Source: Heliocidaris erythrogramma (lineage: Eukaryota; Echinodermata; Echinoidea; Camarodonta; Echinometridae). From it: DNA of 64,000 bases. Positions 8,454 through 45,643 of this stretch are shown here, piece by piece. The notes below the pieces were generated by a model, which worked only from the letters and a program-made list of their open reading frames with translations, was not told the DNA's origin and searched no databases. Made by a program: the position numbers and the translations under genes. The DNA lies in the NCBI GenBank assembly GCA_025617745.1, contig CM046868.1, positions 23,799,608 through 23,863,607 on the forward strand, in the 5' to 3' direction. Position 1 is the first letter of the stretch. Each line of letters begins with the position of its first letter.

Positions 8454-8501
8454 TCAGTCGGTACGTGGTAGAGAGAAATTTCTCTCACTCCTTGCCAACG
8501 T
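8454..8501 (-). CDS. NLR copy 1 exon 12: C-terminus
   Basis: AG acceptor, then TLARSERNFSLPRTD and TGA. Copy 2 has the same short exon with the same acceptor and a slightly longer tail ([18 protein letters not shown]), which supports it as the terminal coding exon. Confidence 0.65.
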   Translation of the reverse strand, partial: TLARSERNFSLPRTD

Positions 8502-11500
8502 CTGAAAGGAAGAAAAGGAAAGAGAAAGATAGAAATAATGTTTACTATAATCGTATTAATCATTTGGATTTGGGCGTCACTGATCATCATGTAGCCCCAC
8601 CCCCACCATCCCATCCTCTTACTCAATGTAATATTCACGTCTGATTTTTTTTAAATCAATTAAAGTGAGATTGATTGGTAACATATTATGTAACTTCATG
8701 TTAGTGATATTGATTTACGATTTTTAATTGGAGAATCAATTCAGCCGTATGAAAGAAAGAAAAAAAATAGGGGGGGGATTTACTTCAGGTGGTACAAGTT
8801 CTTGGTCATATTTTCATATTTTTTCACTATTGCCAAAGTACTAAATTTAACCCATTGCACACGGGAACTGGGTGGCTCCTGTATCAAACTTATAAGAATA
8901 ATTAGCGAATTCAGTGGTCAAAGGGTGATTAAACAAAAAAAAACCCCAACACAACCATTCATAATTGGGGTCGTTCTCAACATATTTACATGTGGGTAGA
9001 AGAGGTGGTAGGACACACTTTCATTCTGCCTTTTCAATATTTCTTAAATAAAAAAATGTGATGGAGGGTATCATGGCTCCCTACCTAAAGGTAATAATTC
9101 AGTAATCTTGAAAATCAATACGAGTGTCCCCTCTTTTGAAACCCAACTGGCATACCTTAGTACACAATGAAAAAAGTTCCCCTTAATTTGCGTGCTTTTT
9201 CGGCTCTGTGCCCCCTCTTTGACAAAATCCTGGATCCGCCCTGCATCTGGCAATACAAAGGCTAATTCGTTAAGGATTATTGTACTGAAATCATATGTTT
9301 AAATAATTATATATACCTCTGGGTCCCAGAAGAATAAAGTGAGTTTCAATGATCTGCTTTGTCCGCTCGTCATGTTGATATCACGATTTTCCTCTGTATG
9401 TTGGTTATGTTGGATTGCGTATTGAGAGAGCTCGCCTTCAGGATCGATGCTACAGTCTAGCCTAATGATGGTCAGGAAAAAAAAATTGTGTGTGAATATA
9501 AACTATCTATCCCATAGTTTAGAGGCCGTTGGGTCGACAATGTGATGGATCTTGAGACACAGGTTCTACATAACTTTCTGTTTTAAGCTGTTCTAAGTTA
9601 ATTCAACATAAAAAACATACGCTATTGTGTAGGTCTACATTTATAAGACAGGCATACAGGCCTATCAAAGGAACAATTATGAAAGCATACAGGTGAAAAT
9701 TAAATAACGAAGTACTGTTATGACATTTGAGAAACTGTATGGTTCAATAAGAATGTGTGCTTATAGAAGGTATTTTTCATATTCGTTTTTCAAACGCACC
9801 TCAAAAGGGTTATCGATGTAAGAGCTCTAATGGCTGTGACGATTTCAAGTAAATCAGATTCGGTGAATACACAGTAGTTGAAACTGATGATTTCAAGTTG
9901 CTTCATTCTGCCACTCGATTTCAGCATGTGGATGAAGTCGTGGACAGTGTCATGTGATACAGTGTTGCTTGCATTCCTTCGTGGGTCAAAGGTCATATTG
10001 AGAACTTCAATTCGGATATCGTTCACTACCAATCCGTCAACGATGACGGATACGACTCTATTGTAATATATATTCTCGGCCATCTTCCTGTGATAATTAT
10101 TCGAAGCAAAAATGTCAAGTTCCGTAACATTTGGCAACCGGGAAAGCAGTATCGGGAAGACCTCTATTTGAGATTTTATTTTGGTCTGGAAGGTTTTTAC
10201 AGATTGAAGTGGTTCCAGAAGTAATGCAGGAACTGAATTCGGGACAGTCATTTTCAAATGTTGCAGTTGTTGGAGATCATGGAGGACTTTCCAAAAGTTG
10301 TTGAAAAACCTGTGTGAGCTTTTGACGTCCATTTCTGGATATCCAGGCATCTGATGATAGAAAATTCGATTCTTTTATCGTTATATGCCTTGGTACACTT
10401 ATGAAAAGTTGGAAATAAATGTCTTTAAATTGAATTGAATTAAACTGATATCAAATTCACGACCTTTTGTTTTACACTTGCAGAGTTTATACAAAGGCGC
10501 TTGTCATAATGATAGAAAACTGGACTGTCTTTTTCCTAATTCATATGTTAAGTTAATAGTTTTTATATTTGTTAGAATACCTGGTAACCATGGTATATAT
10601 TCTCCATAAATATACTTACATCTGAGTCTAAAATGAGCTTTTGTATCTTGGGCAGCTTTCTCAAGATGTAGGGGAGCTCGGCGGAGGATGATTTTGTTTC
10701 CAGTACCTGAACTGACGAAAGTGGCTCTAAAGAGTCTAAGTCACAGAGGGTGTTGGTTGGAATTGGAAGAAGAAGCCTGTAGAGGTCTGGTGACGTATGG
10801 AGATTCTTCCACAACTCACAGAAAGAATATTTCATTTCAAGAAGTTCCTGTAAAAATAACAACAGGGTCGGAAGATGTTTAGACTTATCTGGGTGATAGT
10901 TTTGTCCCATTAGCGTATATTCTGACGTCAGTGTTTCGAGAGAAACATAATTATTCCAACCTTCATAATAAGGGGCACAACCAGCCTGTGCCCCCTCGAA
11001 ACCAAATTGGCATAACCCAAGTACACAACAAAAATATGAACCCCTTTATTTGTGAAATTTATCGGAATTGTGCCCACCTTAGAAATCCTGCATGGATACG
11101 CCCCGGAAAAGAGACATGTGAACATATTGTCGACAGAATTAAGTGATTCAGGATTCTTGGGGGCACGGGTCTTGAACGTCTCTACAAGCAATCAAAACTG
11201 GTTTACATTTTCTGCACCTGCCCATGTACCATCTACTGCTGAACAGAGACATTTTAAGTATAATGATAATAGTGTATATTTATAGAGCGCACACACCGTC
11301 CAAAGACGCTCATGGCGCTAGCCCAGCAACAGTTCTCTTATACCTGGCAAATAAACACAGACATGTGCACATATATCTACCTACATACATATACATATAA
11401 GCCTACATACTGTACATATCCACAAATCAACAAATAACCCACAAAAAAACAAACAAAAAAAATCTTTTATCACTCATCGAAATTGTTAGCAACATCCGTT

Positions 11501-14500
11501 GGGGCCTGGTGCCCCCTTGCTTGCTGCTCCGTTCACCAACAATTTAAGGGTCAAGCCCAGTCGGCTCGGTACTCACAGGAGCTCTGGCATAAAGAGGGCA
11601 CCATTCCCCAACAGGCAGCCAATCAAACCAACGAGCAATGACAAGAACAAGATTTAGATAATATATATAACAAAATATTTAATTTCTCATAAATCGTTAT
11701 TTTTTAGGATACTATATGTTAAACAGAAAAGTCTTAAGGTGCTCTTTAAAAGTAGCATGTTTTTTTAGTACAGCGAAGTGACTGGGGAAGTTGATTCCAC
11801 AACTTGGCTGCAGCATGTGAGAAGGCCCTATCCCCCCATGAGTGTCGGGTACGGAGAATATGCAACAAATCATCACTTCCAGATCTCAAAGTACGTATTG
11901 AATTATAAGGGTGCAGCATGTCTTTAATATATTGTGGCGACATTCCATGGATGGCCTGATGGACAAGAACCATTAGTTTAAAATGGACTCTCTTTTGGAC
12001 AGGCAGCCAGTGAAGAGAACGTAGCACAGGAGTGATAGAGGACATCCTGGGAGTGAAAGTTAGGAGTCTCGCACTGGAGTTTTGGAGAATTTGCAATCTG
12101 TCTAATTGCACTTTAGATACTCCATAAAGAATAGAGTTACAAAAATCTAAACGTGATGATATTAGTGCATGGAGTAGTTGTTCACATGCTTTTTTAGTCA
12201 AAAATTTAGGTATAAACCCAAGATTTCGAAGTTGATACCTCACTGACTTTGAAATACTAGATACGTGTTTAGTTAGTGACATGTTGTTATCAAATATTAC
12301 ACCGAGATTACGTACACTTGAGGATGGCAAAATGGCTTTATCACCAACATGTAGAACCAGCTAATTATGATTGGCCCTAATTAAAGAATTCTTAGAGCCC
12401 AAAATCATGAACTCAGTTTTGCTCTCATTTATCTTAAGACTGTTGGAATCCATCCAGTCTTTCATATCATGAATACAGGCCTCAATAATTGTAATAGCCT
12501 CAGCAATCGCATCAGAGGATGGAGGTACAGAAACAAATAGCTGAATGTCGTCAGCGTAACAATGGTACCTAATATTATGCTTCTTAATTATTGAACTAAT
12601 TGGTTGAAGGTAAATAGGAAACAAAAGCGGACCTTCCCACATAGCCTTGTGGTACACCATAGGAAAGACCACTCTTCTCAGATTTAGAGTTATTTACAGA
12701 GACATACTGGGTTCTATTTTCTATGTATGATGAAAACCCCAAGAGAGCGGAGTCTCTTCACAAGTATTTTGTGATCTATAGTATCAAATGCACTTGACAT
12801 ATCAAGTAACACCAGAAATGTTATATTACCTTTGTCCATTTCATAGAGGATACTATCTACAAGATTAGTTAACAGAGTTTCCACACTATGATGTGGACGG
12901 TAAGCAGATTGAAAATTATCAATAAGATTGTTTTGAATAAGATAAGTGTGAAGACGTGAGAAAGCCACTCGTTCTGCCAATTTGGACAAATATGACAAGT
13001 TTGAGATTGGTCTATAGTTCTGCAGACACTCAAAGTTCATATTAGATTTCTTGAGAGTTGGACGTACTGCAGCAACCTTCATAGTGTCTGGGACTATTCC
13101 TGAACCAAGACTTGTGTTTATTATAGTCACAATTGATGGTACAATAGCAGGGAGGCATTGTTTCAGAAGTGATGTCGGTATGGGATCAAGTTCACTTGAT
13201 TTGAAGGATCAACTCATTATGATGGACGTCATCTCAGAAGAAGATGTAGGAGAGAGTGCATCCAATGTCTTATCTGTGATTAGAGGTATATCAAACCCTC
13301 CTATGTTAGGAAGTATTGATATAACATTTTGTATTTTCTCAGAGAAAAAATTACTAAAACGATTCGCAAGATTTATCAAGGTAGGAAAAGGAGTATGCTT
13401 TTTTCTATTTAACAGAGCGTTAGCAACTCTAAAAAGCTGTCTTGTATCTGTACAGTTTTCAATAAGCTTAGAGTTGTACGATAATTTGGCAGCTCGAACA
13501 CATGACTGTACTACCTGCCGCTGATTGCGGTATTTCTCACGATCAGACTCTAGACCTGATTTGAGCCATTTGTGCTCCAATTTTCTACGAAGGGCTTTTT
13601 TGTGAGCAATTTCCTGACAGAACCATTGAGTATTTGGGCGAACTATGACACATCTAGCTTTCACAGGTGCAAATTCATCAAGAACAGTGTTCAGGATTCT
13701 GAGACATTACCTGAGCAACAATCAAAAAGATATAGCTCAGTAACTCTTGCCATGAACAGTTCAGCGTTTATGGACTTAATATTACGTGTATGTATGATAG
13801 TCTTATCAGCAGAAGGTTTTGTTAGGTTCAAATGACAAATGATGGCTAGATGATCTGATAGACCATCTACAACATTAATGTCAGAGACAATGTTACCATC
13901 AGATTGGCGAGTAATAAGCAGATCTAAAATGTTGCCATGAATATGTGTTGGGACCTGAATATGTTGTATCAGGTCATAAGCTTTCAAAGTTTCAAGGAAA
14001 GGCAGCGAAATTGGGGTAGTGTTATTAACATGAATATTAAAGTCTCCAGCAATTAATATACTGGACTTCTTAAAAAGAAGATAATCTAGTAGACAAGAAA
14101 AATCATAGATAAACACATTTAAAGAGGATGATGCAGTAGGGGGCCTATAGACAACACACAAGTCCAAAGATACACAATTTTGTACTACAGTGAATTCGAT
14201 GAGTTCAAATGAGCTGATAGTGAGTGAGGTAGGAATAAATTTGATATTTATGTTACTACGATAGAGAAGCCCTACCCCACCACCTCTTTTACCAAGTCTT
14301 GGAATATGATGGAACTTGTATCCACCTGGATTTAGGGCAGCAATGACTGCATCATCATCTGGATGCAACCACGTCTCACATACACCAACAATATCAAAAT
14401 TACGATCAATAACAATAACCAATAAGTATAAGTATACTGTATGACTTACCTTTTCTTGAACAAGCAGCTCCTTAATCTTGGGGAGGAAGGTTAATATATG

Positions 14501-17500
14501 AGCGAAGCTCTTCAGTGATATCACATTGTCAGTCTCAAAAATACGGATCGATACGAGCTGCTTCAGATTGGATGTAATATTGGCAGGGATAGGGAGAACT
14601 AATCGGCTGAGAAGTGACTGAGAAGAGTTAAGCTGATTCCATAGTTGTCCAAACACATCAGAAGTAAGGGCAAATACTGATTCATCCCCAAAGTCCTGAA
14701 AAAATATTGAAATAAAAACAAACATGAATAATAAAATGTATTTCAGGGATTTTTTTTCTCAACAGCTTACAACATACTCACTTTATTCAGCATAAATGCT
14801 AGAATTGTTATTAATAAAACTACATAATATGTGTAATCTACCATACAAATAGGTTTTTATAATATCATAATTGATAGGATTGAAGTAAATTGAATATATC
14901 ATAAAGAAAGTAAATGTGAGAAAATTACAATGCCCCGACCGGGATTCGAACCCGGGACCCTTGCTTCGACGGGAGCCCGGATAGCTCAGTTGGTAGAGCA
15001 CTGGTCATGTAATCCAGGGTCCCGGGTTCGAATCCCGGTCGGGGCATTGTAATTTTCTCACATTTACTTTCTTTATGATATATTCAAATAGGTTTTTGAA
15101 AGCATCATGTCAGCAGTGAAATGTTATTATGAGAAGGAAAAGTAAATAGTTAAAACTAATCTAAGAACAGAAATTTCGGTTTTCATTTACCTTATGTGTT
15201 TTTAGGGTGATGTGTTTTGTTGTGTTTGTTTTGTTTTGTTCTTACATTTTTTAATCAAATATGGTACACAGTTGCATCAAAACATTTTGTGTTTAGTTTC
15301 TAAAAGATAGACATATGGAATCCTGCATACCGTATATGTATACCTCCTTGTATAATTATGTAAGATGTTTTATAATAAATGAACCATGTAGACGGGTTTA
15401 AAACTTAGTGTATAATATCCAGTCTTACATCGCAGTATATGACGAGTTCCCGGATGTTGGGCAGGTAAGTCATAATGTGCACGTAGTCATCAGCAGGTGG
15501 CTGGATAGCAGTGGTAAAACTGTTAACAGAGTAAATTTTCTTCATTTCAGGTGAGATAGTCGGTGGAACATGACGATACATCTCCATGTGTGCCAGATTG
15601 ATACAAGAGTGCATGTTGTTCCATAGTCGTACAAATAATACAGGAGAACTGTTAGTTCCAGAAATGTCGATAGTGGTGATCTAGAGGGAATAAAAATGAA
15701 AAAGGTTTTACGTCGATTCCCTTTAGAATGTATTATATCCAAGTCTCAACCCGACTCTCTCTCTCTCTCTAGGTGTCATATCTATTGACTTTGGCGATCA
15801 TGTTGTTCCACAACCCTCTATTTCTAGCCTTCTCTTTTAGCACAACTCCCTTGTCCTTCACTCCTCCCCTTCTAACCATTTCTGCAAATTGTCCATCCAG
15901 AGTGTTCTTCTCCTTCCCCTACTCCTCTTCCCCAATCTATCTTGACAGTGCAAGGTTCTCCAAGCCACATTTACGTAGGCCTACAAAGTGTCCCATTAAC
16001 TTCATCTGTCTACACATTAGCTCGCATATCAGTTTCCTTTTTACTCCAGCTCTTCTCAGGACTTCCTCATTACTTAGTTTGTCAGTCCGACACTGTTTAA
16101 ATTTCGGTCTACAGTCCTATATAACAAAAGAGGTTAGACCAAAGTCTAAGTTTGCCCATTGTTGAACTTGACTTAAACCAGCATCGGCTTTAACTGAATG
16201 AATAAAATACATGTACATACCTTTGAGTTTAATGAAGCTAATACTGAGACTTCCAATGATGAAAAATATATTCTCTCTTGAAGGCTTTCGATGTAATGGT
16301 AAGACTGTTTATACGCGTTTGAAATAGAGTCGTTTTCAGACAACTCTGTCATCAAATAGACTTTATTAAATGGTATTTCCGGAGAGGAAATGTCCCTAGA
16401 AAAGATGAGTAGTTGTCTGATCAATGACTTGCACTATATCAATAATGCCCGACATAAGAGCACAGAAATGAGGTGCCTTCAGAGAAATGATACCAACTAT
16501 TTTCAAAGAATGTAAATATGTTGGTACTACCGAACATTTGATAGTATAGAAATATAATGCTTTTTCTTGCCACTAGTTTTTGATGTTTTTAACAGTTCGG
16601 TATCTAATTTATTTCGTTCCATCTGGAGACGAGAACAACGTCGGATAAGCTATGCTGTACACGATTGTTCTTTCCCTCTTTCTCCGTGCCCTCCATTTCC
16701 CCTATCTCTGTGTCTCTCTCCCGCCCCTTCCCCCTCTCTCTTTAATTACCTTCTCCTTAACGGATCCCGGTAGTTTCTCAAATCCAACCACGGTTGATGC
16801 TGTAACTTGTCGAAGCTGAAGTTTTCCATCTTTCAAAAAGTGTGATAAGTATGTTCTTGATTGTTCTGCACAAGTTCCTGTCTCGCTGATAAAGTCCAAT
16901 ATGAGGGGATGGTACAGGTAATCACTATTTGAGACATCAACATGGGAATCACGATTAAGAATTGATGCTAATATCTTTTGGCAAGCCGAATCTGATGTCC
17001 CTGACGCAAATTGGAGGACCTCTTTCATGTCAAAGGCTAATTCTGAAAATCCAATCGTGCTGATGCTACCGTCATCCAGGCTACCTGCAAGGTATCTTCC
17101 TGCTGAATATTCCTGCGCTAATTTGTGGAAGAATTCAATATAGATGACGATGCCACTATCCGTTTTCATGTTCTTTGTTAACAGCCCAAGTGAGAAACTG
17201 ATGTTAACTTTCTTGCCATGAATTTCACTAAAATCATTCTCAATTAAAAGCAGCGGATTTTGGTCATCTTTGTTGCTTAGTTTCATGAAGGCAACTTGTC
17301 CAACGGAAACAACTGTGTCATTTAGCAGGGTTGGTCCGATCTCTTTATCCTCATCCTTTGCATTCAAATGTGTCATCAAGAACTCCATAATGTCATCAAA
17401 CAACTTTGTTCGAGTAAAGTTTCCATGAATATAGCCATCGTTCCACAAATAGCAAACCATCGTGCAAAACAGAGGTGTGGCAATCATTTCGTTGGTAACG

Positions 17501-20500
17501 ATGTCTTCCTCCAGATATTTCTTCAGTTCTCTCCCATTTGTTTTATTAGAAAGAAAGAATTTATCAATGAAATCCCTAGCATGCTGTTGAGAATACCCTT
17601 CTATTACCATCTTTGAGTAGAAGAAATTCCTCGAATTGAAGTCTTTCATTCTTAGAGGGCGAGAGGTTACCAAAACTCTACATTGCCTACATCTCTCCAT
17701 ACGCAATATGTCTATGACGCCACCTGTACTACCCAAGGCGCTGATCTCTCCGCTAAATTCATCATAACCATCAAAGAGTATGACGATGTCTCTTTCATGA
17801 GAATCGATATACTCTTCCAGCTTAGTTTCATACTTCTTATATTTTTTCCCCAACAATCGGACAACAGCCTCTGATATTTCCGTGTTTTTATCCATGTTTC
17901 TCATTTTAAAGACAAAGAGCAACTTGATATTCTTCAAAGGGGAATCTTCCTTTTTAGTGACCCAATCATAAGCCATTTTCGCTACAGCTGTAGTTTTACC
18001 ACGGCCAGCCTCCCCAAACAAAACGATTCTTTTTGGCAAGGACCTACCAATTTTAGTCTGGAATATATCATTGACTGATCCGTTTAAAATTGATTTCTGT
18101 AATGGCTTATTCGCAAAATTATTCTTGTCTTCTTTGTATAGGCTGACTGTAGTAAAATAGTTCTCTAGGTCCACGTAATCACGCGAATCCCATGGCTTGA
18201 TGTGAATTTTAAACAGATGTTCTTCATAGTATTCGCGAAGTAGCTCCTGGCACTCGTGAAGGGTGAATGTTTCTGTGATATATTCTGAAATATATAAGAA
18301 ATACATGAAAACACTAATAATAACTTACATTGCAGATTCCTTGCTAAAGTCCATTGTAAATTTTCTTTCTTTTCCTAGGCCTACTAAAAGAATATAATTG
18401 TTTGAATGCTATTAGTAAAAATGCATTTAGTTGTCTTAAAATCATACTTCAGTGTTCATAATTCATGCTGGCTTTGGTTTTTCTATGCCAGATAATTTCT
18501 TCTGAATGGTACAAGTGTATAAATGGTTGGTTTTTACCAAGGAGTGAAACATATATATATATATATACAAAATATGAAAGTTCTGCGTCGGTGTGTACAT
18601 AATAGATATCTCCTTCTAGCGACTTTTGCTTATCTTTCGCTTATCATCATGGACCTAATTTTTTTTTTGGCGCAGTATCTTCTTTTGTGACGCCATGTAT
18701 ACGTTGGACTGCAGGGAATGAATGTAAATCATACCTGTTTCACAGCTGTTTCCTCCAAAGCCAGTATCACATGTACAGGAGTAAGTCCCATCACGCTTGC
18801 TACAAGTACCTCCATTTTGACAGGGTGGTACACATTTGCTCGAATCTATATTAAAAAAAGAAAAATAAACAAACAACAGAAAAATAATATTAACGTGAAT
18901 AAAAAACAACATCTGCATACAAAAAACAACGTTTTAAAAGTCAAATGATGGACGGGCATCAGCAAATTTTAGATAAATTACCTGTATTGCCACAGGCAGC
19001 CAAGGAACCTTACAAAGGCAGGCAAACGATATGCAAAGCTGGGAATGTTATGCACTTCTAGAAATTTTGAAATATTTACGCTCATTTCCTGCAATCTGAG
19101 ACACTGGCCTCGTGGTAGAGGTGTCGTGGTCTAGTGGATACGTCACCGGACTGTGGCTCACATGGTTCGCGGTTCGAATCCCGCCACGGCGCTAATGTCC
19201 TTTGGCAAGACATTCATCTACATTTGCCACTCTCAACCCAGGTGAAGTAAATGGGTACCCGGTAGGAAGAAATTCCTTGAAATGCTTTAGCGCCTATTAT
19301 GGCAGCTCGGCTAAAGCGGGGTAATAATGTGATACTTTGTATTAAGCGCAGTAGAGTATATCCATATAGTGGCTGCCCTATATAAATGGGCATATTATTA
19401 TTATTATTATTAACACCATGATCACTGGACATTTTATTTTGTATGTGTGTGTGTTTTATTCTTTGTTTATGTGCGTGTGTGGGTGTGGGCGTGGGCGTGG
19501 GCGTGGGGGGGGGGGGGGTGGTTCGCAAACTTGGTAGGGTGTAGGCCTACGCTTGTTTGCCCTATGCCGAATTCACCACTTCCGTTCATGTGCTAAAGCC
19601 TCTATTCCAATTAGGGCTATCCTATACTCACTATCAAATAGCCTCTTTTTTTACTTGGCATCCACTGGCCTATTATTAAAATGGATGTTATTACATACAA
19701 AGCCAGAAGAATAATGATTTTTATTAAAATTTGTTGTTCACTCACCAGACAAAGCAAAGAAAAGGTGTGCCAAGATGACTAAAACCAACCCAAAACCTGT
19801 GATAGCAACATAAATAAAGCAATGTACTAATAAAATATAAATAGTTTAAGGGCCTCAAAAACGTAAAAAAGAGAGGACGCAAAAAAAGAAAGGAAATTAA
19901 AAAACAATCATCTAAATTCCCATTTTGCTTTCAAAGATCTTTATACGGTGTAATTTTCGAGAGCAAATTAAATAATTTTGTACGTTTTGCCTTCTTTGTT
20001 TTGTTTCTCTTGCGAGCAGAAAATTATTATTATCGTTATAATAATTATTACTATTATCATTATTGATAATATTATCATTCTTACTATCATCATTATCATT
20101 ATCATGATTAGAATCATACCAATAATTATAATTGTTATTTGTCAAATGCAATATTTAACTGTGTCTCCGGTTTAATTCTTCACAAACTTTTGTGAAAATC
20201 GAATAAATGAAAAAAAAAAGTGCAAGTGAAATTTACATTTATTCTTGGAAAAAAAAAATCACCTGCAGCTTTCAAAAGTACTCTGTTAATTAAAGAGTAT
20301 TCATCAGCAGGCTGGTGGTGTGGAGATGGAGTTGTCTCGGATGGCGGGTCGGTAGTTTGGATTGAGAGCGGGTCGATCTGTGGCTGGCATGATTGGGGGG
20401 CTGGTCGATCAATGGTGAGTGGGTAGGACATCGCGCCAGCATCCCTGGGTTGGATTTCAATCTCAGTCCCCCCGGCAGGTTCAGGATTTTGAGGACTACG

Positions 20501-21340
20501 TCCAGGATGTTGCCAGTTTCTTATTTCTGCATGTTATAATAAATGAAAATAATCCATTCATATAGGAATTGAATTATTTATTAATGATATGGCTCAACCG
20601 CTCAAGTGTTTATATTTGAACTTCCATTTCATTTTAGATATAGCAATACAATTATTCAGCTTTCTTTATTATTTTGAGAATTGAGAATACTGTAGGATGA
20701 AAATGGGGGGGGGGGGGGGGGGGGTAGAGATAGATGAAAGAAATAAAATGTGGACAATATTTACACAAGTAACTACAATATATCTTCGCTCTATATCTCG
20801 CACTCCTGCTTTTTCCCTCGGTCTCTCATTCTCTATTGAATGATTTAACTCCAGATACGCAATAAATATCATTTCGTTCAAAATTATACAAATAATAATT
20901 ATGACCATTCAAAGAGCACTCCCGTCATGAGAAAAAAATGAACGATACACTACGCGTAGGAAGATTAAAATTCACTTCATACTATCATTAGGCATGATAA
21001 TAAAAGGTTGGGTAAACATATATATTCAATTTTGAGCAGATAGTTCAGACGCACCTTTCTCAATTAACTTGGCAAGGAGAAGTTTGTCCTTTTCTTTAAA
21101 GATATCAATGAGCTTCTGAGCACATTGCATCCCTCGACCGTACTTCATGACGAATCTGTGTAGGAGAGTATGGTGTGCTTCCTGAGGATTCCCTTGCATA
21201 TTAGCCTGCACCTTCATAGCATTTCCGGTGGGCACACCAAACCCCAGGTGGATGCTAAGATGGTGAGCTGGATATTGCATTACATCAATTTGCTGTGATA
21301 AATCAAGCAAGAAGTCGTCGCTCAGAACGTTTTCATCCAT
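8454..21340 (-). CDS. NLR copy 1: Death-linker-TM-EGF-NACHT-LRR-like receptor
   Basis: Putative innate-immune NLR-type sensor. Coding exons (minus): 21340-21055, 20526-20263, 19796-19746, 18845-18735, 18284-16750, 16433-16221, 15680-15429, 14695-14450, 10847-10620, 10350-9800, 9461-9317, 8501-8454. All junctions are GT/AG with matching phases; the total is 3930 nt, i.e. 1309 aa plus TGA. Approximate residues: Death-like 1-95, Pro/Ser/Thr linker 96-183, hydrophobic 184-200, EGF 201-237, NACHT exon 238-749 (Walker [10 protein letters not shown] about 328-336, Walker [10 protein letters not shown] about 406-414, TSRP about 444), joining exon 750-820, LRR-like 821-1245, C-terminal 1246-1309. The start ATG has an in-frame TAA just upstream. 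Family knowledge: sea urchin NLRs are usually Death-NACHT-LRR; the TM and EGF modules are extra. Exon joins are inferred and untested. Confidence 0.75.
9128..9250. mobile_element. Short non-autonomous repeat (same family as 1535-1690)
   Basis: Shares GAAACCCAACTGGCATACC and the end AAAATCCTGGATCCGCCCTG with 1535-1690. It lies in the last intron of NLR copy 1 and is not seen at the copy 2 equivalent. Confidence 0.55.
9317..9461 (-). CDS. NLR copy 1 exon 11
   Basis: Acidic 48-codon exon ([15 protein letters not shown] to FFWDPE), acceptor ATTAG, donor GTATAT, phase 2 to 0. Copy 2 matches at 26997-26853 with identical length. No known domain recognised. Confidence 0.65.
9800..10350 (-). CDS. 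NLR copy 1 exon 10: LRR-like unit 4 and C-terminal leucine-rich part
   Basis: Begins right after CAG with MPGYPEMDV; this ATG is internal, not a start. The first 80 residues follow the same pattern as the three preceding exons (FWKVLHDL, then LPNVTELDIF). The remainder, MKQLEIISFNYCVFTESDL and so on, has spaced Leu/Ile like LRRs. Donor GTGCGT, phase 2. Confidence 0.7.
10620..10847 (-). CDS. NLR copy 1 exon 9: LRR-like unit 3
   Basis: 76 codons, phase 0 to 0: [20 protein letters not shown], then LRKLPKIQKLILDSD, ending at donor GTAAGT. Homologous to exons 7, 8 and 10 and to copy 2 31354-31118. Confidence 0.7.
10973..11107. mobile_element. Short non-autonomous repeat, diverged
   Basis: GTGCCCCCTCGAAACCAAAT and TGGCATAACCCAAGTACACA match the family at 1535-1690; the end is AGAAATCCTGCATGGAT. 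Confidence 0.45.
11263..14428 (-). mobile_element. CR1/L2-like LINE, 5'-truncated, inactive
   Basis: An apurinic-type endonuclease (GGGVGLLYR, ILIAGDFNIHV, GLSDHLAI) runs from about 14410 to 13691, then linker and reverse transcriptase: LQNYRPISNLS, LVLLDMSSAFDTIDH (motif A), YHCYADDIQLF (YADD), and a C-terminal LRSLHWLPVQKR and WGDRAFSHAA tail to 11746. Frames change between 13691 and 13664 and again between 13130 and 12672; stops separate 13209/13130 and 12361/12330, so it is dead. Flanked by TAAGTATA at 11255-11262 and 14429-14436, a target-site duplication. It sits in the intron between NLR copy 1 exons 8 and 9; copy 2 has the uninterrupted site near 32290. Confidence 0.9.
14450..14695 (-). 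CDS. NLR copy 1 exon 8: LRR-like unit 2
   Basis: 82 codons, phase 0 to 0: DFGDESVFALTSDVFGQLWN, then [17 protein letters not shown] and LTFLPKIKELLVQEK before donor GTAAGT. The open frame runs on into the LINE, giving a misleading 344-codon ORF; the paralogue 32554-32309 shows the true end. Confidence 0.75.
14890..15087. repeat. Perfect 72-bp inverted repeat built on a tRNA-like gene half
   Basis: The left arm 14890-14961 is the exact reverse complement of 15016-15087; the spacer is 14962-15015. Each arm holds the 3' half of a tRNA-like sequence (box B GGGTTCGAATCCC) plus about 40 bp of its 3' flank. The 5' half occurs once, in the spacer. It lies in the intron between NLR copy 1 exons 7 and 8 and is absent from copy 2. 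Confidence 0.9.
14975..15046 (+). tRNA. tRNA-like sequence (Lys-type head; probably pseudo)
   Basis: GCCCGGATAGCTCAGTTGGT gives acceptor and D-arm like eukaryotic tRNA-Lys; the T-arm CCGGGTTCGAATCCCGG is perfect. The anticodon arm CTGGT-CATGTAA-TCCAG has a T-T mismatch and lacks U33, and the acceptor stem has a G-G mismatch at pair 5-68. The loop would read TGT (Thr) if aligned by length. More likely a tRNA pseudogene or SINE head than a working tRNA. Confidence 0.4.
15429..15680 (-). CDS. NLR copy 1 exon 7: LRR-like unit 1
   Basis: 84 codons, phase 0 to 0: ITTIDISGTNSSPVLFVRLW, then [11 protein letters not shown] and [15 protein letters not shown] at donor GTAAGA. Same length and splice sites as copy 2 34982-34731. 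Confidence 0.75.
15752..16089 (-). mobile_element. LINE 3' fragment in intron of NLR copy 1
   Basis: The minus frame reads DKLSNEEVLRRAGVKRKLIC, RQMKLMGHFV and, after stops and shifts, KARNRGLWNNMIAKVNRYDT, a LINE C-terminal tail. The 3' end runs into a GA repeat (15752-15770). CCGAC occurs on both sides, and copy 2 (about 35050) has the joined sequence CCCGACACTG without the insert. Confidence 0.75.
16221..16433 (-). CDS. NLR copy 1 exon 6: joining exon, absent from copy 2
   Basis: 71 codons, phase 0 to 0: acceptor GATATAG, CKSLIRQLLIFSRDISS to VLASLNSK, donor GTATGT. No recognised domain; it could be the first leucine-rich segment. Its only support is open frame, splice sites and phase match, since copy 2 lost the region. 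Confidence 0.55.
16750..18284 (-). CDS. NLR copy 1 exon 5: NACHT NTPase
   Basis: One 1535-nt exon, entering in phase 1 and leaving in phase 0 at donor GTAATT. In order: helical lead-in (YITETFTLHECQELLREYY), [20 protein letters not shown] (P-loop), [12 protein letters not shown] (Walker B with the extended acidic box of NACHT), [10 protein letters not shown] (sensor 1), [12 protein letters not shown] (winged-helix side) and [17 protein letters not shown], the conserved helical-domain-2 signature of NLRs. ATP-driven oligomerisation is the family role. All catalytic residues expected by eye are present. Confidence 0.92.
18735..18845 (-). CDS. NLR copy 1 exon 4: EGF-like domain
   Basis: 37 codons on a phase 1-1 exon: [19 protein letters not shown] and TYSCTCDTGFGGNSCETG. 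Six Cys in EGF spacing with the NGGTC and GF-G core. No obvious calcium-binding DxNEC start. A disulfide domain implies a secretory location, which conflicts with a cytosolic NACHT. Confidence 0.88.
19117..19413 (+). mobile_element. tRNA-derived SINE
   Basis: GGTGTCGTGGTCTAGTGGAT head, GGTTCGAATCCCGCCACGGC box B, GGCAAGACATTC, CAACCCAGGTGAAG, and an ATT tail. It lies in the intron between the TM and EGF exons of NLR copy 1; copy 2 carries an independent insertion elsewhere in the same intron. Confidence 0.8.
19746..19796 (-). CDS. NLR copy 1 exon 3: single transmembrane segment
   Basis: A 51-nt, phase 1-1 micro-exon encoding GFGLVLVILAHLFFALS between acceptor TCACAG and donor GTGAGT. Copy 2 has the same size and pattern ([17 protein letters not shown]), so conservation of hydrophobicity despite substitutions supports it as coding. 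Confidence 0.72.
20020..20125. repeat. ATT/ATC-rich simple repeat
   Basis: Imperfect ATTATTATC-type tract in the linker-TM intron; accounts for the Ile- and Asn-rich spurious ORFs on both strands. Confidence 0.8.
20263..20526 (-). CDS. NLR copy 1 exon 2: Pro/Ser/Thr-rich linker
   Basis: 88 codons, phase 1-1: IRNWQHPGRSPQNPEPAGG, DPPSETTPSPHHQPADEYSL, LLKAAG. The block PPSETTPSPHHQPADEYSL recurs in copy 3 (SPSETTPSPCHQPAHGYSL), and in shortened form in copy 2. Low complexity, probably an unstructured or O-glycosylated stalk. Confidence 0.7.
20705..20724. repeat. Poly-G run
   Basis: About 18 G in a row; similar runs occur at 4656-4677, 49976-50001 and 51888-51907. Confidence 0.9.
21055..21340 (-). 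CDS. NLR copy 1 exon 1: Death-fold N-terminal domain
   Basis: ATG at 21340 gives MDENVLSDDFLLDLSQQI, then YPAHHLSIHLGFGV, NPQEAHHTLLHRFVMKYG and QKLIDIFKEKDKLLLAKLI. The six-helix spacing and the LG then LL..F..K.G pattern fit the Death superfamily, which would recruit signalling adaptors. Leaves in phase 1 at donor GTGCGT. Confidence 0.78.
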
Positions 21341-25440: not shown

Positions 25441-25895
25441 AACAAGACGCTGACATTAATTTCTTCAGTATCCTACAACTAACACGTCCCAAATACGTTA
25501 CCCCCTACACTGATTGAACGATGCTCTTCATTACTGATTATTATTTATACATTTCTTGTTATCGTTATTGTTGTTTTTGATCTACAATAATTTCTGACAT
25601 GTTATTATCATCATTATGATTATTATCATCATCATTATTATTCAGCAAATTTTCAGTGATTTGCTAGTAGTCTGGGACTGGGAGACGAAGTCCGACATGC
25701 TCGAATAAAATCGTTGCAAGCTTAGTTCAGCTTTGTCGTATAAGGCAGTTTCCTGTTTAAGAAAAACAATTTTTTATCTTGCGTCTATGGTGCTTGTTTA
25801 CAGCACATTCATACAGTCATTTTGTTCAAGGCAGAAAACTCGCTTCGAATCTTCTTCAAACGTGTCAAACGAAATACCCATTCTCCATTTTAAGC

Positions 25896-25952
25896 TTATG
25901 AAGGTGGGTCAGAACGTGGTAGAACAAAATTTCTCTCACTCTTTGCAAACGT
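25896..25952 (-). CDS. NLR copy 2 exon 12: C-terminus
   Basis: [18 protein letters not shown] then TAA; homologous to copy 1 8501-8454. The 3' sequence beyond it (25745-25890) also matches 8290-8450. Confidence 0.6.
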   Translation of the reverse strand, partial: TFAKSERNFVLPRSDPPS

Positions 25953-26563: not shown

Positions 26564-29500
26564 TTAAATGTTCTTTATGCACCATTCCAGGGGTGGGTGG
26601 ATGTACGTCTGCCCCGTTGCTACGCCACTGGAAGGACAATGTAATATCCAGAGTTTTGGAATTGGGTGGCAGAGGGATGATGGATGCATCTATGAGTCGA
26701 GACATTTTCTTGAGAAACCTACTGAGTTCGCACTAGGGGGTGGGGTGGGGGAGGTACGAATATGCCGCACTTTCCCTAAAAAGGCTCATGCTATATCGCT
26801 TTGATAATGGATTATAATTGTAATGAGAAATGTTCAGAAAATATACTAGTACCTCTGGGTCCCTGAAGAATAATGTCAATATCAACGGTCCACTTTGTCC
26901 GCTCTCCATGTTAATATCACCATCTTCCTCCATCGGTTGGCTATGTTGGGTGGCGTATTGAGAGAGCTCTCCTTCAGAATCTAAGCTACAGTCTAGCCTA
27001 ATCATCAGTAGAAAGCAGCAAAAAGAAGGAAAAATAATCCATACATGTTCAAACTGTCACAAATATGAAATGAAACTTGATGTGGAAATGCCGACACCGT
27101 TGCGTAATGATAAACACTTTCTGTGCAAACTATCAACACGTGTACATCTTCTGATATATTAATAGAATAACCAAATGCATCTTGCAACTATTAATCAATA
27201 CTATACTGGAAATCATGCTTAATGAATTTAATTTGATTCAGTGCAAAAACTAATATTATATACAATACTTTACTATATTTCTATATGTATCAACCAGAGT
27301 ATATACTGTACGTGTATCTACATTCTTACCCTTATAATATTTGAGAGAAATATGGATCAAATGAAAGAAAATGGTACGTACAAATACAGATATTGCTTTA
27401 ATATTTGTGTTTCAAACTCACTTCAAAAGCACAATAGATGTTAAAACTCTGATGGCTGTGACTATTTCTACTAAATCTGATTCGTTGAATACACAGTAGT
27501 CGAAACTGAAGATTTCAAGTTGCTTCATTCTACCACTCCATTTCACCATTTGGATGAAGTTATGGACAGTGTTATGTGACACAGTGTTGCTAGCATTACT
27601 TCGTGGGTCAAAGGCCATATTGAGAACTTCAGGTCGGATATCTTTCGCTACCAATCCGTCAATGATGACTGATACAACTCTGTCATAATAAATATTTTCG
27701 GCCATCTTCCTGTGATAATTATTCGAAGCAAATATTTCAAGTTCCGTAACATTTGGTAACCGTGAAAGCAGTTTCTTAAAGACCTTCATTTGAGATTTGA
27801 TTTTGGTCTGGAAGGTTTTCACAGATTGAAGTGGTTTCAGATGTATTGCAGGAACTGAATTCGGGACATTCATTTTCAAATGTCGTAGTTGGTGGAGATC
27901 ATGGAGGACGTTCCAAAATTCGTCGAAAAACCTGTCGTCCATTGCTGAATATCCAGGCATCTGATGACAGAAAATGTTGTTTTTTATAGTTATATGCCTA
28001 CTTATATGACGGCGATATGTCATCAAATTCGGGTCCTCTTTACACTTGCAGGGCTTATACAAATGCGCTTATCCTATTGATAGAAAACTAGATTGTATTT
28101 TTCCCTTATTTTATATGTATTTAATTGCTGTCATATTTGTTAGAATATTCGTGATATTACCATACAAAATTTTACGGATTCATAATAGCATTTTAATAAA
28201 AAGTTTAAGAATATGAAGTAAGGAATATGTGGTAATAAAATTGTATGTTGTTCCATAATAATGTATTAAAGTTGCTTAATAATTCAATAGTATTACCGCA
28301 TTTGACATTTTGTAATATCATTTGGGGAAATTCATATTTATCACATTTAAATAAAATAATAGTGCTTCAAAGGAAAGCTATTCGGATAATAACCATTCAG
28401 ATTATAATTGTTCTAGTAATCTCTTATTTGTACAAATGAAAGTTCTCCCAGTTCAGGAATTAATAACGCTTAACACCCTAATATTTATGCATAATTTTCA
28501 TACTGGAAAAATTTCACAAATCTTTAAAACTATATGTTTGTAAGCAATTCTTCCATTCATTCGTATAATACAAGGCAAAGATTGTTATTACATAAACATC
28601 CTGTACGAACAACCCAATCTCTAAATTCATTTTTATATGTAGGAATAAGTAAATGGAATAGTCTACATTATAGAGGTGTTGTGGATCAGTGGATAAGTCC
28701 CCGGACTGTGAACCACGAGGTCCAGGGTTCGAATCCCACCGCAGCACTAGCGTCCTTTGGCAAGACGTTAATCTACATTTGCCACTCTCCACCCAGGTGT
28801 TAAATGGGTACCCGGTAGGATGCGAAAGTTAATGTCGTTTGTTTAGCAATTTTGAGCGCCACTGTGCATGCTGCTCTTGCTGGAATACTCCCCAGGGAGC
28901 GGATAAAGTGCACACATTGTGTGCGGGCATGTCAGAATCCGAGGACCGGGGTAATAATAGTATCGCAATATGTAAAGCACTTTGATATTAGTTTACTTCT
29001 GAAAAGCGCTATATAAATAGACGTTATTATTATTATTATTATTATTATAATATCAGGTCAAGTTCTACTTTATCAATATTTAGGGTATTGTGTATATTAA
29101 AGGGGAATAAAAAGCAACAAACATTAGCCTATAATCATGCAGATAATTGTCAGCCTATTACAAATATCTACTCCTATTTGATTATTTAAGAAGGAGAACA
29201 GTGTCTCCAAAAGTTGCAGTTTCCTTGCTGGACATTATCCCATGCTGGCTGCCATTTTCTTTATTCCCTAATTTGTCCCTCAAACGTGAATAAAATATTT
29301 CCTAAAATGCAAGTCTAATCCCTGTGAAAACCTGAAAGGCAAACACATATAATATAAACATCAACTTTATAATAGTAGGGCTGGATCTATAGCTTTGATG
29401 GCAACGACGGACGTCAAAACACGTGCGACTTTTTGGAGTTACTTCATACTACTTCTCACTTCATACTTCATACATCTTATCAATGTATTTTTGCTTTAAA

Positions 29501-31476
29501 AGTAAATTTTTAGAGTTAATTCATACTACTTCTCATTTCATACTTCATACATCTTATCAATGTATTTTTGCTTTAAAAGTGAATTATCTATTTATTATTA
29601 TGCAATCTGCTAATTTTTCATTTGGACGATTTAACAACGTCCGCCGCTGAAAAATCGAGCCAAGTCAATGACGATTCACTCCTTCTCACCCTTGCACCAC
29701 ACCTGTGGTCATTCAACCTGTTAATACATTCCTATTATGTAAATAGGGATTAGTCCCGCTCTTCTAAGGAAATACATTTACAAAGTAATGTCAAAGCTGT
29801 GGAATGCATGACACTGAATTTTCTCATAATAAACCATTATTGTAGTCATGTACATTCAAATGAAGATACTTTTATCCTGTCATAAAACCTATTTGTGTCA
29901 AGATATTTGGTTCAGCTGTTTCTTTTGTTAAGCAGGATTTGGCATGCTCATGTAAGTTGCTTGGTCTGACAAAGGTTTGTCAATTCTTCAAAGAAGTGAC
30001 AAAGACCTACAACTGCTCTTAGATATCACCTGTGCGAGACAATGGGGGTACCAAGATGGCTGCCATTTTGCTTGGGTGGCTTTAGTTGTACAATAGCTAT
30101 TTTATTATGCAACATCTTATCCATTGTGTACAAGTAAATGGACATGTACCGCAATGACATCACAATTTTTCAAAATGGCAGCCCCCATGGGATAATATCT
30201 AGCAAGAAATCTGCAAAATTTAGAAAGACTGTTCTCCTTACTGAGTAATCAAATCAGAGTATTTTCAAGATATTTTTAACAGGCTGACAATTTTTCCACA
30301 TGATTATCAGCTAATGTGTATTGAGTTTCATTCTCCTTAAGGGAACATTTTAAAAGCTTTTTGTAACTGAGTGGAATCATTCCCATCTTCCTCTCTTCCC
30401 CTTTCTCTCTCTCTCTCTCTCTCTCGCTCGCTCTCTCTTTCTCCCTATTGTATCTATTATGTGTGTGTGTGTGTATGTGTGCTTTATAGATGTGTACATG
30501 TTTACGCATTCATGGGTAGTAATAGACCTGTTTACTAAGTGATACAAATTTATGGATGTTTCTTTCCTGGGGACCTAGTAACGAGGTATTCCATTAACCT
30601 GTTATTAATGAATGAACTACAATACTTGGAATCCAGTTTGCATACATTACTTGTTGCTATGTCTGACAAGCCTCTGGCAAGCTTTCAGGTTGTCAAGAAC
30701 AACCTTTGTTTCAAAAGTATGCATAAAATTTGAATCACTTAGTAAACATGTCTATTAAATAGGTCATCGGTTGTCACCAATTGGTGAGGTTTATTCCGTC
30801 AATGAATTTTGTGACGCAGTTCAATAGTGGAGTCATCGGTTGAAAATTTGAACAATAGAAAACATAGATGTGTGTGTATGTGCGAATGTTGACCAACCAA
30901 ATTCATCCATTTAATCTCATTTTATGTAAATGTTATATATTACTTTATCTTATTTGTATTTTGTTGGGCCCCAACTACAAGCTTTGCTTCTCAGCGGTCC
31001 AAATCTTTCATGATATTGTATGTTTTGTATCAATAATTTATTGTTTATTTGTTTTATGATTGGTTAAATAAAAAAAAAGTGGTAACCATGATAAGTATTC
31101 TCCGTAAATATACTTACATCTGAGTCTAAAATGAGCTTTCGTAGATTGGGCAGCTTTCTCAAGATGTAGGGGAGCTCGGCGGAGGATGATTTTGTTTCCA
31201 GTACCTGAACCGAGTAAAGTGGCTCTAAGTTACACCGGAATGACCGGATGAATGCTGGAATCGGAAGAAGAAGCCTGTTGAGGTCTGGTGAGGTATGGAG
31301 ATTCTTCCACAGCTCACAGAAAGCTGCAGTGTTATATTTCAGTTCAACAGATTCCTGGAAAAATAACAACAGGGGCGGCAGGTGATAGTTTCGTTCTATT
31401 AGGATGACGTCATCTTGATCTACGTAAACTTAACCCTAACCTCCATATTAATAATAATAGTATTATTATTGATAAC

Positions 31477-31510
<34 letters not shown>

Positions 31511-34251
31511 TGTCCATTTATATAGCACAGTTACTATACATAATATACTCTACTGCGCTTAATACAAAGTATTATATTATTACCCTGGCTTTATCGGCCT
31601 TACCCAAGCCGCCAGCCATGTAGGCGCTAAGGCATTCAAGGAATTTCTTCCTACCGGGTACCCATTTACTTCACCTGGGTGGAGAGTGGAAATGTAGATT
31701 AATGTCTTGCCAAAGGACTTTAGTGTCGCGGCGGGATTCGAACTGCGAACCATGTCATTCACAGTCCGGAGACATATCCATTAGACCACGACACGACAAA
31801 ACACGACATGACATAATAATAACAATAATAATGATAATAATAATAATAATAGTAATTATTATAAGCATAACTACGACTTAAAACGAATCTTAACAAAAGG
31901 CTGAGATAAAAGGATGCACTTTCATGTCTCAGGTAAAATTATAATTATTATTATTATTATTATAATAATAATGATAATAATACTAATGATGATAATAATA
32001 ATAATAATAATATAAATATACCATTAGAAATATACAACGGATAGAAAAGGGAGTACAACTGGCCCATCCCCCACCAATCAGGAAATTATTCTCAATTGTG
32101 CCCCTTTTCACATCCTGGTACCCTACTGACATGAGACGCATAAACACAATGTCGACAGAACTGATAAGTTATCCAGGATTCTGGGGCCACAGTTCTTAAG
32201 GGTCTCTTCAAGCAATTAACAGATCAAAAATGGTTGATGTTTTCGTGCACCTGTCCAAGGATCATCTACTCTTCAACAGAGACATTTCAAGTATACTGTA
32301 TTGCTTACCTTTTCTTGAACAAGCAGCTCCCTAACCTTTGGAAGGAAGGTTAAGACATGAGCGAAGCTCTTCAGTGATATCACATTGTCAGTCTCAAAGA
32401 TACGGATCGATGTGAGCTGCTTCAGATTGGATGTAATATTGGTAGGGATGGGAAGAACTAATCGGCTGAGACGTGATTGAGAAGAGCTAAGCTTATTCCA
32501 TAGTTGTCCAAACACAATAGAAGTAAGGGCAAATTCTGATTCATCACCAAAGTCCTGAAAAAAGATCAAATTATTGAAGTAAAGACAAATAAGAATGATA
32601 AATGTTTTTCAGAGAGACAAATTTCAGCAGCTTACAACATATTCGGCAGAATTATTTTTATGGATATTTTTATTTTATTTCTATGTATATTTATGTATAT
32701 GTATAGGGGATTAACATTTAATCAGTCTTCAATTAATCTCCCAACACTTCATATAAAGTTGTTTGTTACTGTTTGTTTTTCTGTCTGTACATGATACATG
32801 TAATATATATGGATATGTACTTGCATAATTTCGATGTTTTAGTTTTTATGATAGTGAATTTAAGTGCCGATGTGAAGCTCGGTACATAGGACGCACAACC
32901 CAACGGTTAGCAGATCGCATTAGCCAACATGTGCCCAAGTCAATCCGAAATCGTCAAACTAACGCGCGCCCACAACCTTCACGCTCTTGTACAAAACTAC
33001 ATGTATGTGTAATCTACAATAGCAATATGTTTCTTAAAGTGTCATGTCAGTAATGAAGTCTTATCATGCATGAGAAGGAAAAGTAAATAGCTAAAAATAA
33101 TCTAAGAATAGAATTTTAGGTAAAATTATTCATTCATTTTACCTGGTTGTTTATTGGTTTTTTTTAAAGTAGAACACTGATGATTTTAAATATTGGCTTA
33201 ATACTTATTATTGCATAGATGGCATAAATTAAACAAGGTTATCCAAATTTAAAGCTTGGAAACATTTGAATTAATGATTATTATCAATTATAAAACGGTA
33301 AAATACAGCCCCCGATATAGCAGCTGAAAAGCTCCTTGAACGCTGCTGAGATGTGTGACGACACAAGAGGGGCGAGTCCTGTCTAAGCAGACGATGTCCC
33401 ATAACATTATACACATTTTTCAGTGCCTGTTTTGTCATCTCCTCTTCACTTATTTCTCTTACTTGACTAGCGTCAGTCTTAATGTTAGTCTGTTGCCTCA
33501 CTCTTAACTTCGTGTATGGTATTATTTTGATGAAAAATGCAGCGTTAAAAAAATAAAGGAATCAGTCACTTGTAAACAAAATAAGACGCCATTGTATTTT
33601 CAGCTGCTTGCACCGCGGCATGTTCGGCGTTTCAAGAGGGAACGAATACCATCCAGCTATTATTCGCAGGACTTTTCAATTTGAAAATGGGGTTTATTTC
33701 ATTGATCATTGACCCTTCTCCTGTGTATTTACAATCAAACGGTTTTAGTTATCAGAATCAGTTCACTTTCCCTTTTCGAATGGTGTGAAATAAGGTCATG
33801 TTTAAATGTACCAAACTCTTTATAATTTGATAAATAATTGCATTGCAATTACGTTCATTCATTATAGGACGTCGTCTGCTTAAGCAGGATCGATCCCTCG
33901 TATGACGACATCAAAACATCGCTATATTTCTGGCGAATCCTCGGATATTCCACATGCTGAGAAGAGCTTTTATTTATGTTGTTTTTATAATCATCATATA
34001 CGCAGTTGACATAAAACTTATACGATTGCCATCTGTAAGCTTCCCAATTTCTAGTGATACATTAATTGCCATATTTGTGATTTTCTTGAGTGTTCTACTT
34101 TAAGGTGGTGTTTTTTGTTTTAGTTTTTTACATTTTTAATAGAATAGGGTACACACTAAGCATTTCGTGTTTTTAGCATTTCTAAAAGATAGACATATGA
34201 TACCTGCATACCGTATATGTATACTTTTTTGTATAATTTTGTGTGGTGTTG

Positions 34252-45523: not shown

Positions 45524-45643
45524 CTGCAAATTTCCCAAGGAATCTGTTCCTTAAAGAGTATCCATGAGCAGGCTGGTGGCATGGAGATGGCGTTGTCTCG
45601 GAGGGCGAGTCGGTAATGTTTGTTCGTTTGATTGAATTTGTTT
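45524..45643 (-). pseudogene. NLR copy 3 linker exon (open, in a remnant gene)
   Basis: TNSIKRTNITDSPSETTPSP and CHQPAHGYSLRNRFLGKFAG, phase 1-1 with acceptor ACGCAG and donor GTAATT. Still open, although both neighbouring exons of this copy are broken. Confidence 0.6.

Follow-up and report, generated by a model that had tools for sequence, protein, structure and literature searches.

A sea urchin NLR-family gene with transmembrane and EGF exons between its Death and NACHT exons: a predicted membrane-tethered NACHT receptor

Background

NLR families in sea urchins are very large, 203-241 members having been counted in the purple sea urchin, and the account of these SpNLRs reports 2A-like sequences in 85 of 241, with 12 of the 14 N-terminal ones being predicted signal sequences; there is thus a precedent for the routing of a sea urchin NLR to the secretory pathway by its N-terminus (PMC4981915). 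Membrane NLRs are not new, with published examples in sea cucumbers, sea anemones and a sponge; a sea cucumber protein with an extracellular NACHT domain, AjNLR-new, was reported in 2026 (PMC13133943). Here we describe a gene in a window of 64,000 nt of Heliocidaris erythrogramma DNA (GCA_025617745.1, CM046868.1, 23,799,608-23,863,607; all coordinates below count within this window), the product of which is best read as a predicted membrane-tethered NACHT receptor.

Results

An earlier note on this DNA had proposed that twelve exons join to 3930 nt without a stop, and a reconstruction on the minus strand bears this out: the 12 minus-strand exons of the first gene (copy 1) sum to exactly 3930 nt from ATG to TGA, with matching phases, zero internal stops and AG/GT at the internal exon borders. 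E1 (21055..21340) carries the ATG and a predicted Death-fold domain and exits in phase 1. It is followed by three exons of phase 1-1, namely a proline-rich linker (E2, 20263..20526), the last part of which is kept in copies 2 and 3, a putative transmembrane (TM) exon of 51 nt (E3, 19746..19796) and an EGF exon of 111 nt (E4, 18735..18845). Next come the NACHT exon (E5, 16750..18284), E6 (16221..16433), three LRR-like repeat exons (E7, 15429..15680; E8, 14450..14695; E9, 10620..10847), a further LRR-like exon (E10, 9800..10350), E11 (9317..9461) and E12 (8454..8501), which ends in the TGA stop. The twelve-exon model is open in frame as proposed but E6 is doubtful, because copy 2 lacks it and yet reads as one open frame; further, the better-looking acceptor of E6 (exon start 16395) breaks the frame, which is preserved by the weaker acceptor at 16433 alone. 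Since the junction of E5 with E7 is equally in frame, the transcript may comprise 11 exons.

Pfam searches upheld the earlier domain labels in part. The NACHT domain of copy 1 scored 62.8 bits against a cut-off of 26.7, and the six-cysteine EGF modules of copy 1, copy 2 and a related locus on another chromosome (C2, see below) scored 22.8, 37.4 and 36.1 bits, respectively, against 21.5. In contrast, E1 of copy 1 had no Pfam match, the whole of its Death assignment coming from the predicted fold, and the LRR label corresponds to a weak LRR_14 match of 20.2 bits that lies below the cut-off of 40. The LRR-like exons display similarity of repeats from exon to exon, and the AF2 model of E10 (mean pLDDT 35.6) is uninformative on the LRR fold. 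No Ig family occurred among the Pfam matches of copy 1 up to E 1. NPGP was sought across all six frames of the window and, for the C2 stretch, across the three frames of the minus strand; it matched four times in the window, never in an exon of the gene, and not at all on C2; we therefore rejected 2A-like dual targeting of the SpNLR kind. Three of the four window matches read DSNPGP.

Next to copy 1, copy 2 (42262-25890, minus strand) contains homologues, in identical order, of all the exons except E6, 11 in number: a Death-fold exon (41983..42262), the E2 linker (40742..40837), a TM exon of phase 1-1 (38746..38796), three EGF exons of which the first is degenerate (37653..37706), the second intact (37403..37516) and the third interrupted by an in-frame TAA (37207..37317), the NACHT exon (35400..36928), E7 (34731..34982), E8 (32309..32554), E9 (31118..31354), E10 (27422..27960), E11 (26853..26997) and E12 (25890..25952), with its stop a few codons beyond the position in copy 1. 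E1-E5 and E7-E12 join into one open frame when only the intact EGF exon is used. Thus, the exon order does repeat in copy 2, as had been claimed, but without E6, without an in-frame ATG in its first exon and with one usable EGF exon of three. Of a third copy we found minus-strand remnants of the Death exon, with a frameshift and a stop (46988..47271), and of E2 (45525..45614); eight 10-kb flank pieces, covering 40 kb per side, contained no further copies. On its sequence the locus is a tandem pair of NLR-family genes, apparently complete in copy 1 and partly decayed in copy 2.

A more distant form of the arrangement recurs at C2, where Death, hydrophobic and EGF exons precede NACHT in phases matching those of the window copies, and where these three and the start of NACHT share one frame. 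The C2 EGF exon is of phase 1-1, as is the hydrophobic exon (75 nt, score 2.88), which is the sole match in 20.4 kb with a widened donor list; a first scan with a narrower list had found none. The widened list was also applied to the background scan, in which, the two TM exons aside, 288 kb yielded 8 matches above 2.0, all of them below 2.8. At one other locus, L037, a hydrophobic phase 1-1 match (2.65) lies upstream of NACHT, without an EGF exon. The C2 Death ORF was chosen by eye among 14 upstream ORFs, 4 of which were run against Pfam, and at 22.8 bits it is barely above the cut-off of 22.6; a sequence relationship between it and E1 of copy 1 is undetectable. The reading frame of the C2 NACHT is shifted by 1 nt within a T run, and the 11 kb downstream of it yielded no homologue of E7-E12. 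The LRR-like part of the window gene has matches elsewhere only on C2, and these C-terminal relatives lie ~185 kb from the C2 NACHT on the opposite strand; we rejected that place as a further family gene, the 10 kb upstream of it, part of which reads N, being devoid of Death, EGF and NACHT. The matching phases in copy 2 and, distantly, on C2 hence lend good support to the earlier claim of a single gene comprising Death, TM, EGF and NACHT, and the recurrence rules out an annotation accident or a chance run of unrelated neighbouring exons.

Among the NACHT loci cut out, an EGF exon immediately before NACHT is confined to three. Of 338 candidates 84 were scored, and all but two of these map outside the window; of the 82, one is 49% identical and the other 81 are 34-39% identical. 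In the 30 loci cut out from the 84, a search of the ~1.1-1.5 kb upstream recovered an EGF exon in three, namely copies 1, 2 and C2, each of which has an intact one; in a NACHT tree of the 30 loci these three form a clade with 100/100 support. An EGF pattern match at L035 had no tblastn support and was taken as chance. Likewise, C12 has an isolated Death exon with 48% identity to E1, which was set aside, there being no TM, EGF or NACHT homologue in the 10 kb fetched. Exons of the C2 Death type are NLR-linked: of 102 such exons, 24 lie within 30 kb 5' of a listed NACHT exon, whereas shifted positions gave a mean of 1.14, both lists being lower bounds.

Comparison of copies 1 and 2 gave a dN/dS of 0.42 pooled over ten exons (E2 and E6 excluded), the NACHT exon being the most constrained (0.32) and E3 reaching 1.88 on 12 differences. 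Between C16 and C2 the EGF exon shows pS 0.70-0.76 and pN 0.24-0.29 with all six cysteines retained, and NACHT, at the same depth, shows pS 0.71-0.72 and pN 0.21-0.22. Over this distance the EGF is thus as strongly constrained as NACHT, from which it follows that the EGF-bearing form matters. These values bear on the view that the TM and EGF exons are remnants in decay, or part of a separate transcript, rather than components of a working NACHT protein. The E3 ratio, the two broken EGF exons and missing ATG of copy 2 and the frameshift in the C2 NACHT would fit such decay; against it stand an exon order and phases that agree between loci on two different chromosomes, the low pN of a six-cysteine EGF in the face of saturated pS, and the intact EGF exon of every member. 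We accord this view only a small probability.

A 19-residue hydropathy scan of copy 1 revealed one outstanding segment (2.26), the next separate one scoring 1.62, and hence no second TM segment stands out. In simulations the hydrophobicity of this segment would persist by chance between copies 1 and 2 in 6-11% of cases. With just one TM, lying after Death and before EGF, NACHT would be placed outside and Death inside. An extracellular location is unusual for NACHT, an ATP-binding module. Lysines and arginines on the N and C sides of the TM number 2:1 in copy 1, and 4:1 and 3:0 in the other two EGF-bearing members, in line with Death inside; on either flank of the copy 1 TM, however, the charges cancel out (K/R 2, D/E 2 versus K/R 1, D/E 1), which leaves its orientation undecided. 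N-glycosylation sequons in the NACHT exon exceed expectation in the three EGF-bearing members (5 for 3.3, 4 for 2.6 and 4 for 2.8), as against 0-3 observed for 1.4-3.5 expected at 27 other loci, a contrast that comes from essentially one lineage. NACHT-exon cysteines number 7-8 in the three members versus 8-13 in the 27 others, the ranges overlapping at 8. EGF and NACHT could alternatively lie on opposite sides of the membrane, by way of a second segment or an N-out orientation, such that NACHT would stay in its usual cytosolic compartment; the sea cucumber protein AjNLRC4, which has two TMs and for which an intracellular NACHT is reported (PMC8699970), and the indecisive flanking charges of copy 1 speak for this arrangement. 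It is nevertheless quite improbable, given the lone hydropathy segment, the lack of any hydrophobic stretch between the adjacent EGF and NACHT exons, and the fact that an N-out orientation would place Death outside.

Discussion

The position of the TM and EGF modules between Death and NACHT suggests that the product is probably a surface receptor rather than an intracellular sensor. Our preferred explanation, to which we give roughly even credence, is that an NLR subclade acquired these modules and that its product is a membrane receptor of type II, with Death inside and EGF-NACHT outside. The two window copies belong to a small subclade in which a predicted TM exon and an EGF exon, each of phase 1-1, lie between the Death and NACHT exons. 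If the exons are spliced as predicted and the TM segment inserts into the membrane, the main product would be a single-pass type II receptor with the Death domain in the cytosol and the EGF, NACHT and LRR-like repeats outside the cell or in the lumen of a vesicle. Binding of a ligand by the LRR-like part, perhaps together with nucleotide-dependent assembly of NACHT, would cluster the receptors and so draw their Death domains into proximity on the cytosolic side, where these would recruit Death-domain adaptors.

The omission of E3, E4, both, E2 or E2-E4 leaves the frame open through NACHT with zero stops; as E3 and E4 are skippable in this way, the gene may also give rise to a Death-NACHT-LRR form in the cytosol. 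A stronger version makes the TM-EGF pair a skippable cassette, with a cytosolic NLR of this kind as the main product and the membrane form minor or regulated. It would accord with the cytosolic location described for classic NLRs (PMC4981915) and with constraint between the two copies being strongest on NACHT, but modules of phase 1-1 skip in frame automatically, without this being a sign of use, and an EGF constrained to the same degree as NACHT between C16 and C2 argues against a dispensable cassette. We regard it as unlikely. Rather doubtful too is an extension of the type II receptor reading to an inside-out NLR, that is, a type II death receptor with an extracellular NACHT and LRR-like sensor, possibly with extracellular ATP released by damaged cells serving as its nucleotide, and cytosolic Death signalling, from which a skippable TM-EGF cassette could yield a cytosolic NLR. 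If the type II receptor reading is correct, a domain insertion made a receptor at the cell surface out of a sensor that had worked inside the cell, while its cytosolic Death effector was kept, and whether NACHT works outside the cell becomes testable in echinoderms. The exon phases further offer a simple test of a membrane/cytosolic switch within one receptor.

The earlier note had called the arrangement unfamiliar. This holds in that no Death-TM-EGF-NACHT protein was found in the open-licence literature searched, but it must be tempered by the membrane NLRs already published; given those from sea cucumbers, the window gene is a variant on a published theme and not the first membrane NLR. With the sea urchin NLRD proteins, described as Death-NACHT-LRR (PMC11508797, PMC4981915), it has in common the predicted Death-NACHT order and a NACHT related to the large NACHT families of this genome, to which it adds the TM and EGF exons, its E1 Death being of a different lineage. 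The SpNLRs with 2A-like signals are described with an N-terminal signal and without a TM or EGF exon (PMC4981915), and the exons of the window gene contain no 2A motif. TM-NLRs of sea anemones (PMC5094078) and a sponge (PMC12909245) have transmembrane segments, as predicted here, 3-5 of them N-terminal in the former, and the accounts consulted include no Death-TM-EGF order. AjNLRC4 is an echinoderm membrane NACHT protein like the predicted window product, from which it differs, as described, in its extracellular Ig domains, its two TMs, the reported side of its NACHT and its lack of LRRs (PMC8699970). In AjNLR-new, a membrane protein whose NACHT is reported to be extracellular and whose N-terminal part lies inside, the disposition is that proposed here; the likeness is one of description only, since that protein has an Ig domain and two TMs where the window gene has Death, one TM and EGF (PMC13133943).

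Gene model and domain architecture of copy 1

Rebuilding and joining the twelve exons of copy 1 (8454..21340, minus strand) gave 3930 nt from ATG to TGA with no internal stops, as an earlier note on this DNA had claimed. That note had also placed Death, transmembrane (TM), EGF, NACHT and LRR-like parts in this frame. The NACHT (62.8 bits, cut-off 26.7) and EGF (22.8 bits, cut-off 21.5) modules were recovered by Pfam, and the TM part by hydropathy, with residues 178-196 forming the single outstanding hydrophobic segment (19-residue mean 2.26; next separate segment 1.62). The LRR-like part stayed below threshold (LRR_14, 20.2 bits, cut-off 40), and the Death part is supported by its predicted fold: Pfam revealed no Death family in the joined protein, the first exon (E1) searched alone had no Pfam match, and comparison with PDB sequences gave no match up to an E-value of 1. 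An AlphaFold2 model of E1, with two sequences as input, displays six helices (pLDDT 79.2, pTM 0.72). Among its ten best Foldseek matches in the PDB nine were death-domain chains, including FADD, TRADD, Fas-FADD, ankyrin G and TNFR1, and the tenth was a designed protein; probabilities were 0.95-1.00 and TM-scores 0.62-0.67, with E-values of at least 0.29 and none at or below 0.001. Because these matches accompany empty sequence searches, E1 as modelled is a death-fold domain by shape and not by sequence.

In exon 6 the better-looking acceptor breaks the frame. Since the frame-keeping acceptor is weak and copy 2 is missing this exon, an 11-exon transcript would be just as consistent with the sequence. 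A non-LTR retroelement (11746-14440, minus strand) with endonuclease and reverse transcriptase matches and an interrupted frame lies directly after E8, its endonuclease frame running on from the E8 reading frame; the intron preceding E8 holds a tRNA-Thr-like sequence (14975-15046) within a palindromic repeat.

Copy 2 (42262-25890, minus strand) repeats this exon order for 11 of the 12 exons, exon 6 being absent. When that exon is skipped and, of the three EGF exons, just the middle one is used (the first is degenerate and the third contains an in-frame TAA), copy 2 is open from the E1 start to the terminal stop; its E1 lacks an in-frame ATG. Pooled across the ten exons that were compared, dN/dS between the copies is 0.42 (NACHT 0.32, EGF 0.47, E3 alone 1.88). 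Simulation kept the hydrophobicity of E3, the TM exon, by chance despite 12 differences in 6-11% of cases, and hence constraint on E3 is suggestive only. Copy 3 survives as remnants of E1 and E2, and no further copies were found within the 40 kb flanks on either side. The E2-E3 intron of copy 2 carries a MITE-like long inverted repeat (39026-40612; 276-nt arms 91% complementary, with more arms nested), and a flavin amine oxidase gene with two exon-like ORFs (Pfam Amino_oxidase, 28.2 and 63.6 bits) lies at 53329-56869 on the plus strand.

Relatives in the genome

A NACHT search of the genome (1.064 Gb in 26 contigs) recovered 101 scored matches among 312 candidates. Bindin, a sperm protein of sea urchins, also matched strongly (239.9 bits), in support of a sea urchin source. 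The copy 1 NACHT exon has 84 scored matches: apart from the self-match these are copy 2 at 76%, a match on contig C2 at 49% and 81 more at 34-39%. When 30 NACHT loci were cut out for an EGF check and a tree, only copies 1, 2 and C2 had an EGF exon within 1.1-1.5 kb upstream, and they formed one clade (support 100/100).

On a single strand the C2 member carries, in this order, a Death exon that leaves in phase 1 (C2:63676306-63676574; 22.8 for Pfam Death against a cut-off of 22.6), a 75-nt hydrophobic exon (C2:63673185-63673259; phase 1-1, score 2.88, sole hit in 20.4 kb), a 105-nt EGF exon (C2:63669920-63670024; phase 1-1, 36.1 bits by Pfam) and lastly a NACHT exon entered in phase 1. A single frame runs through Death, TM, EGF and roughly the first 360 nt of NACHT; farther along, a 1-nt frameshift within a T run may reflect either decay or an error in the assembly. 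A first scan that allowed fewer donors did not pick up the hydrophobic exon; it was found with a widened donor list, whose background over 288 kb (128 kb of window strands and 160 kb of flank strands) contains 8 hits above 2.0 besides the two TM exons, none reaching 2.8; a further hit, at 2.65, came from a total of 44.7 kb of sequence preceding the 30 NACHT loci. The domain arrangement of copy 1 is a real feature.

Between the chromosome bearing copies 1 and 2 and the C2 member, the EGF exons (pS 0.70-0.76, pN 0.24-0.29, 6/6 cysteines kept) and the 5' part of NACHT (pS 0.71-0.72, pN 0.21-0.22) show similar values, and the two are therefore partners of about equal age, each maintained as protein. 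E1 and the C2 Death exon have no detectable sequence relationship, so the Death part has either been exchanged or diverged beyond recognition. In this genome a Death exon of the C2 type is a normal companion of an NLR NACHT exon: of 102 such Death exons, 24 are on the same strand as a listed NACHT exon and no more than 30 kb 5' of it, where shifted positions give a mean of 1.14, the lists being lower bounds. Those of the E1 type are not normal NACHT partners here, the same criterion, with lists that are again lower bounds, capturing 4 of 27, all inside the window. An array at C8:16594875-17210883 contains 21 of these 27, some of them in pairs spaced by ~0.9 kb, and no NACHT is listed within 30 kb of them; the array is a possible source of the copy 1 Death exon.

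Matches to E8 and E10, both LRR-like, were reported from two places only, the window and C2:63.478-63.485 Mb. As the matching exons on C2 (63478218-63485107, plus strand) lie ~185 kb from the C2 EGF-NACHT exons, which are on the opposite strand, an inversion, either genuine or an assembly artefact, may have split the C2 gene.

Proposed membrane topology and function

Basic residues tend to mark the inner side of a membrane segment (the positive-inside rule). Within 15 residues of the TM segment, K+R counts on the N and C sides are 2:1 (copy 1), 4:1 and 3:0 across the three EGF members, which favours a Death domain on the inside; copy 1 by itself gives no orientation, because on each side its basic residues are offset by acidic ones. 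In these three members the NACHT exons contain 5, 4 and 4 N-glycosylation sequons (expected 3.3, 2.6 and 2.8) and 7-8 cysteines each, against 0-3 sequons (expected 1.4-3.5) and 8-13 cysteines in 27 others, a pattern that fits an outside location, though in essence it contrasts a single lineage with the rest. C-x4-T-C, the spacing of the O-fucose site consensus, is also preserved in the EGF exons. The frame through NACHT survives skipping of E3, E4 or both, and thus a cytosolic form may stand as a rival to the membrane form. The product of a copy 1-type gene is most likely a type II receptor; its exons, phases and constraint are observed directly, and from splicing onward we infer that the Death domain would sit in the cytosol, with EGF, NACHT and the LRR-like part outside, and that clustering of the receptor would recruit Death adaptors.

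Comparison with known systems

No Death-TM-EGF-NACHT protein appeared among the listed results of our open-licence literature searches, and automated database entries could well include one. In sea urchin NLRs, 2A-like sequences at the N-terminus can serve as secretory signals on reporters (PMC4981915). Membrane NACHT proteins are described in anemones (PMC5094078), a sponge (PMC12909245) and sea cucumber, the last including AjNLRC4 (PMC8699970) and AjNLR-new, whose NACHT is reported to be extracellular (PMC13133943).
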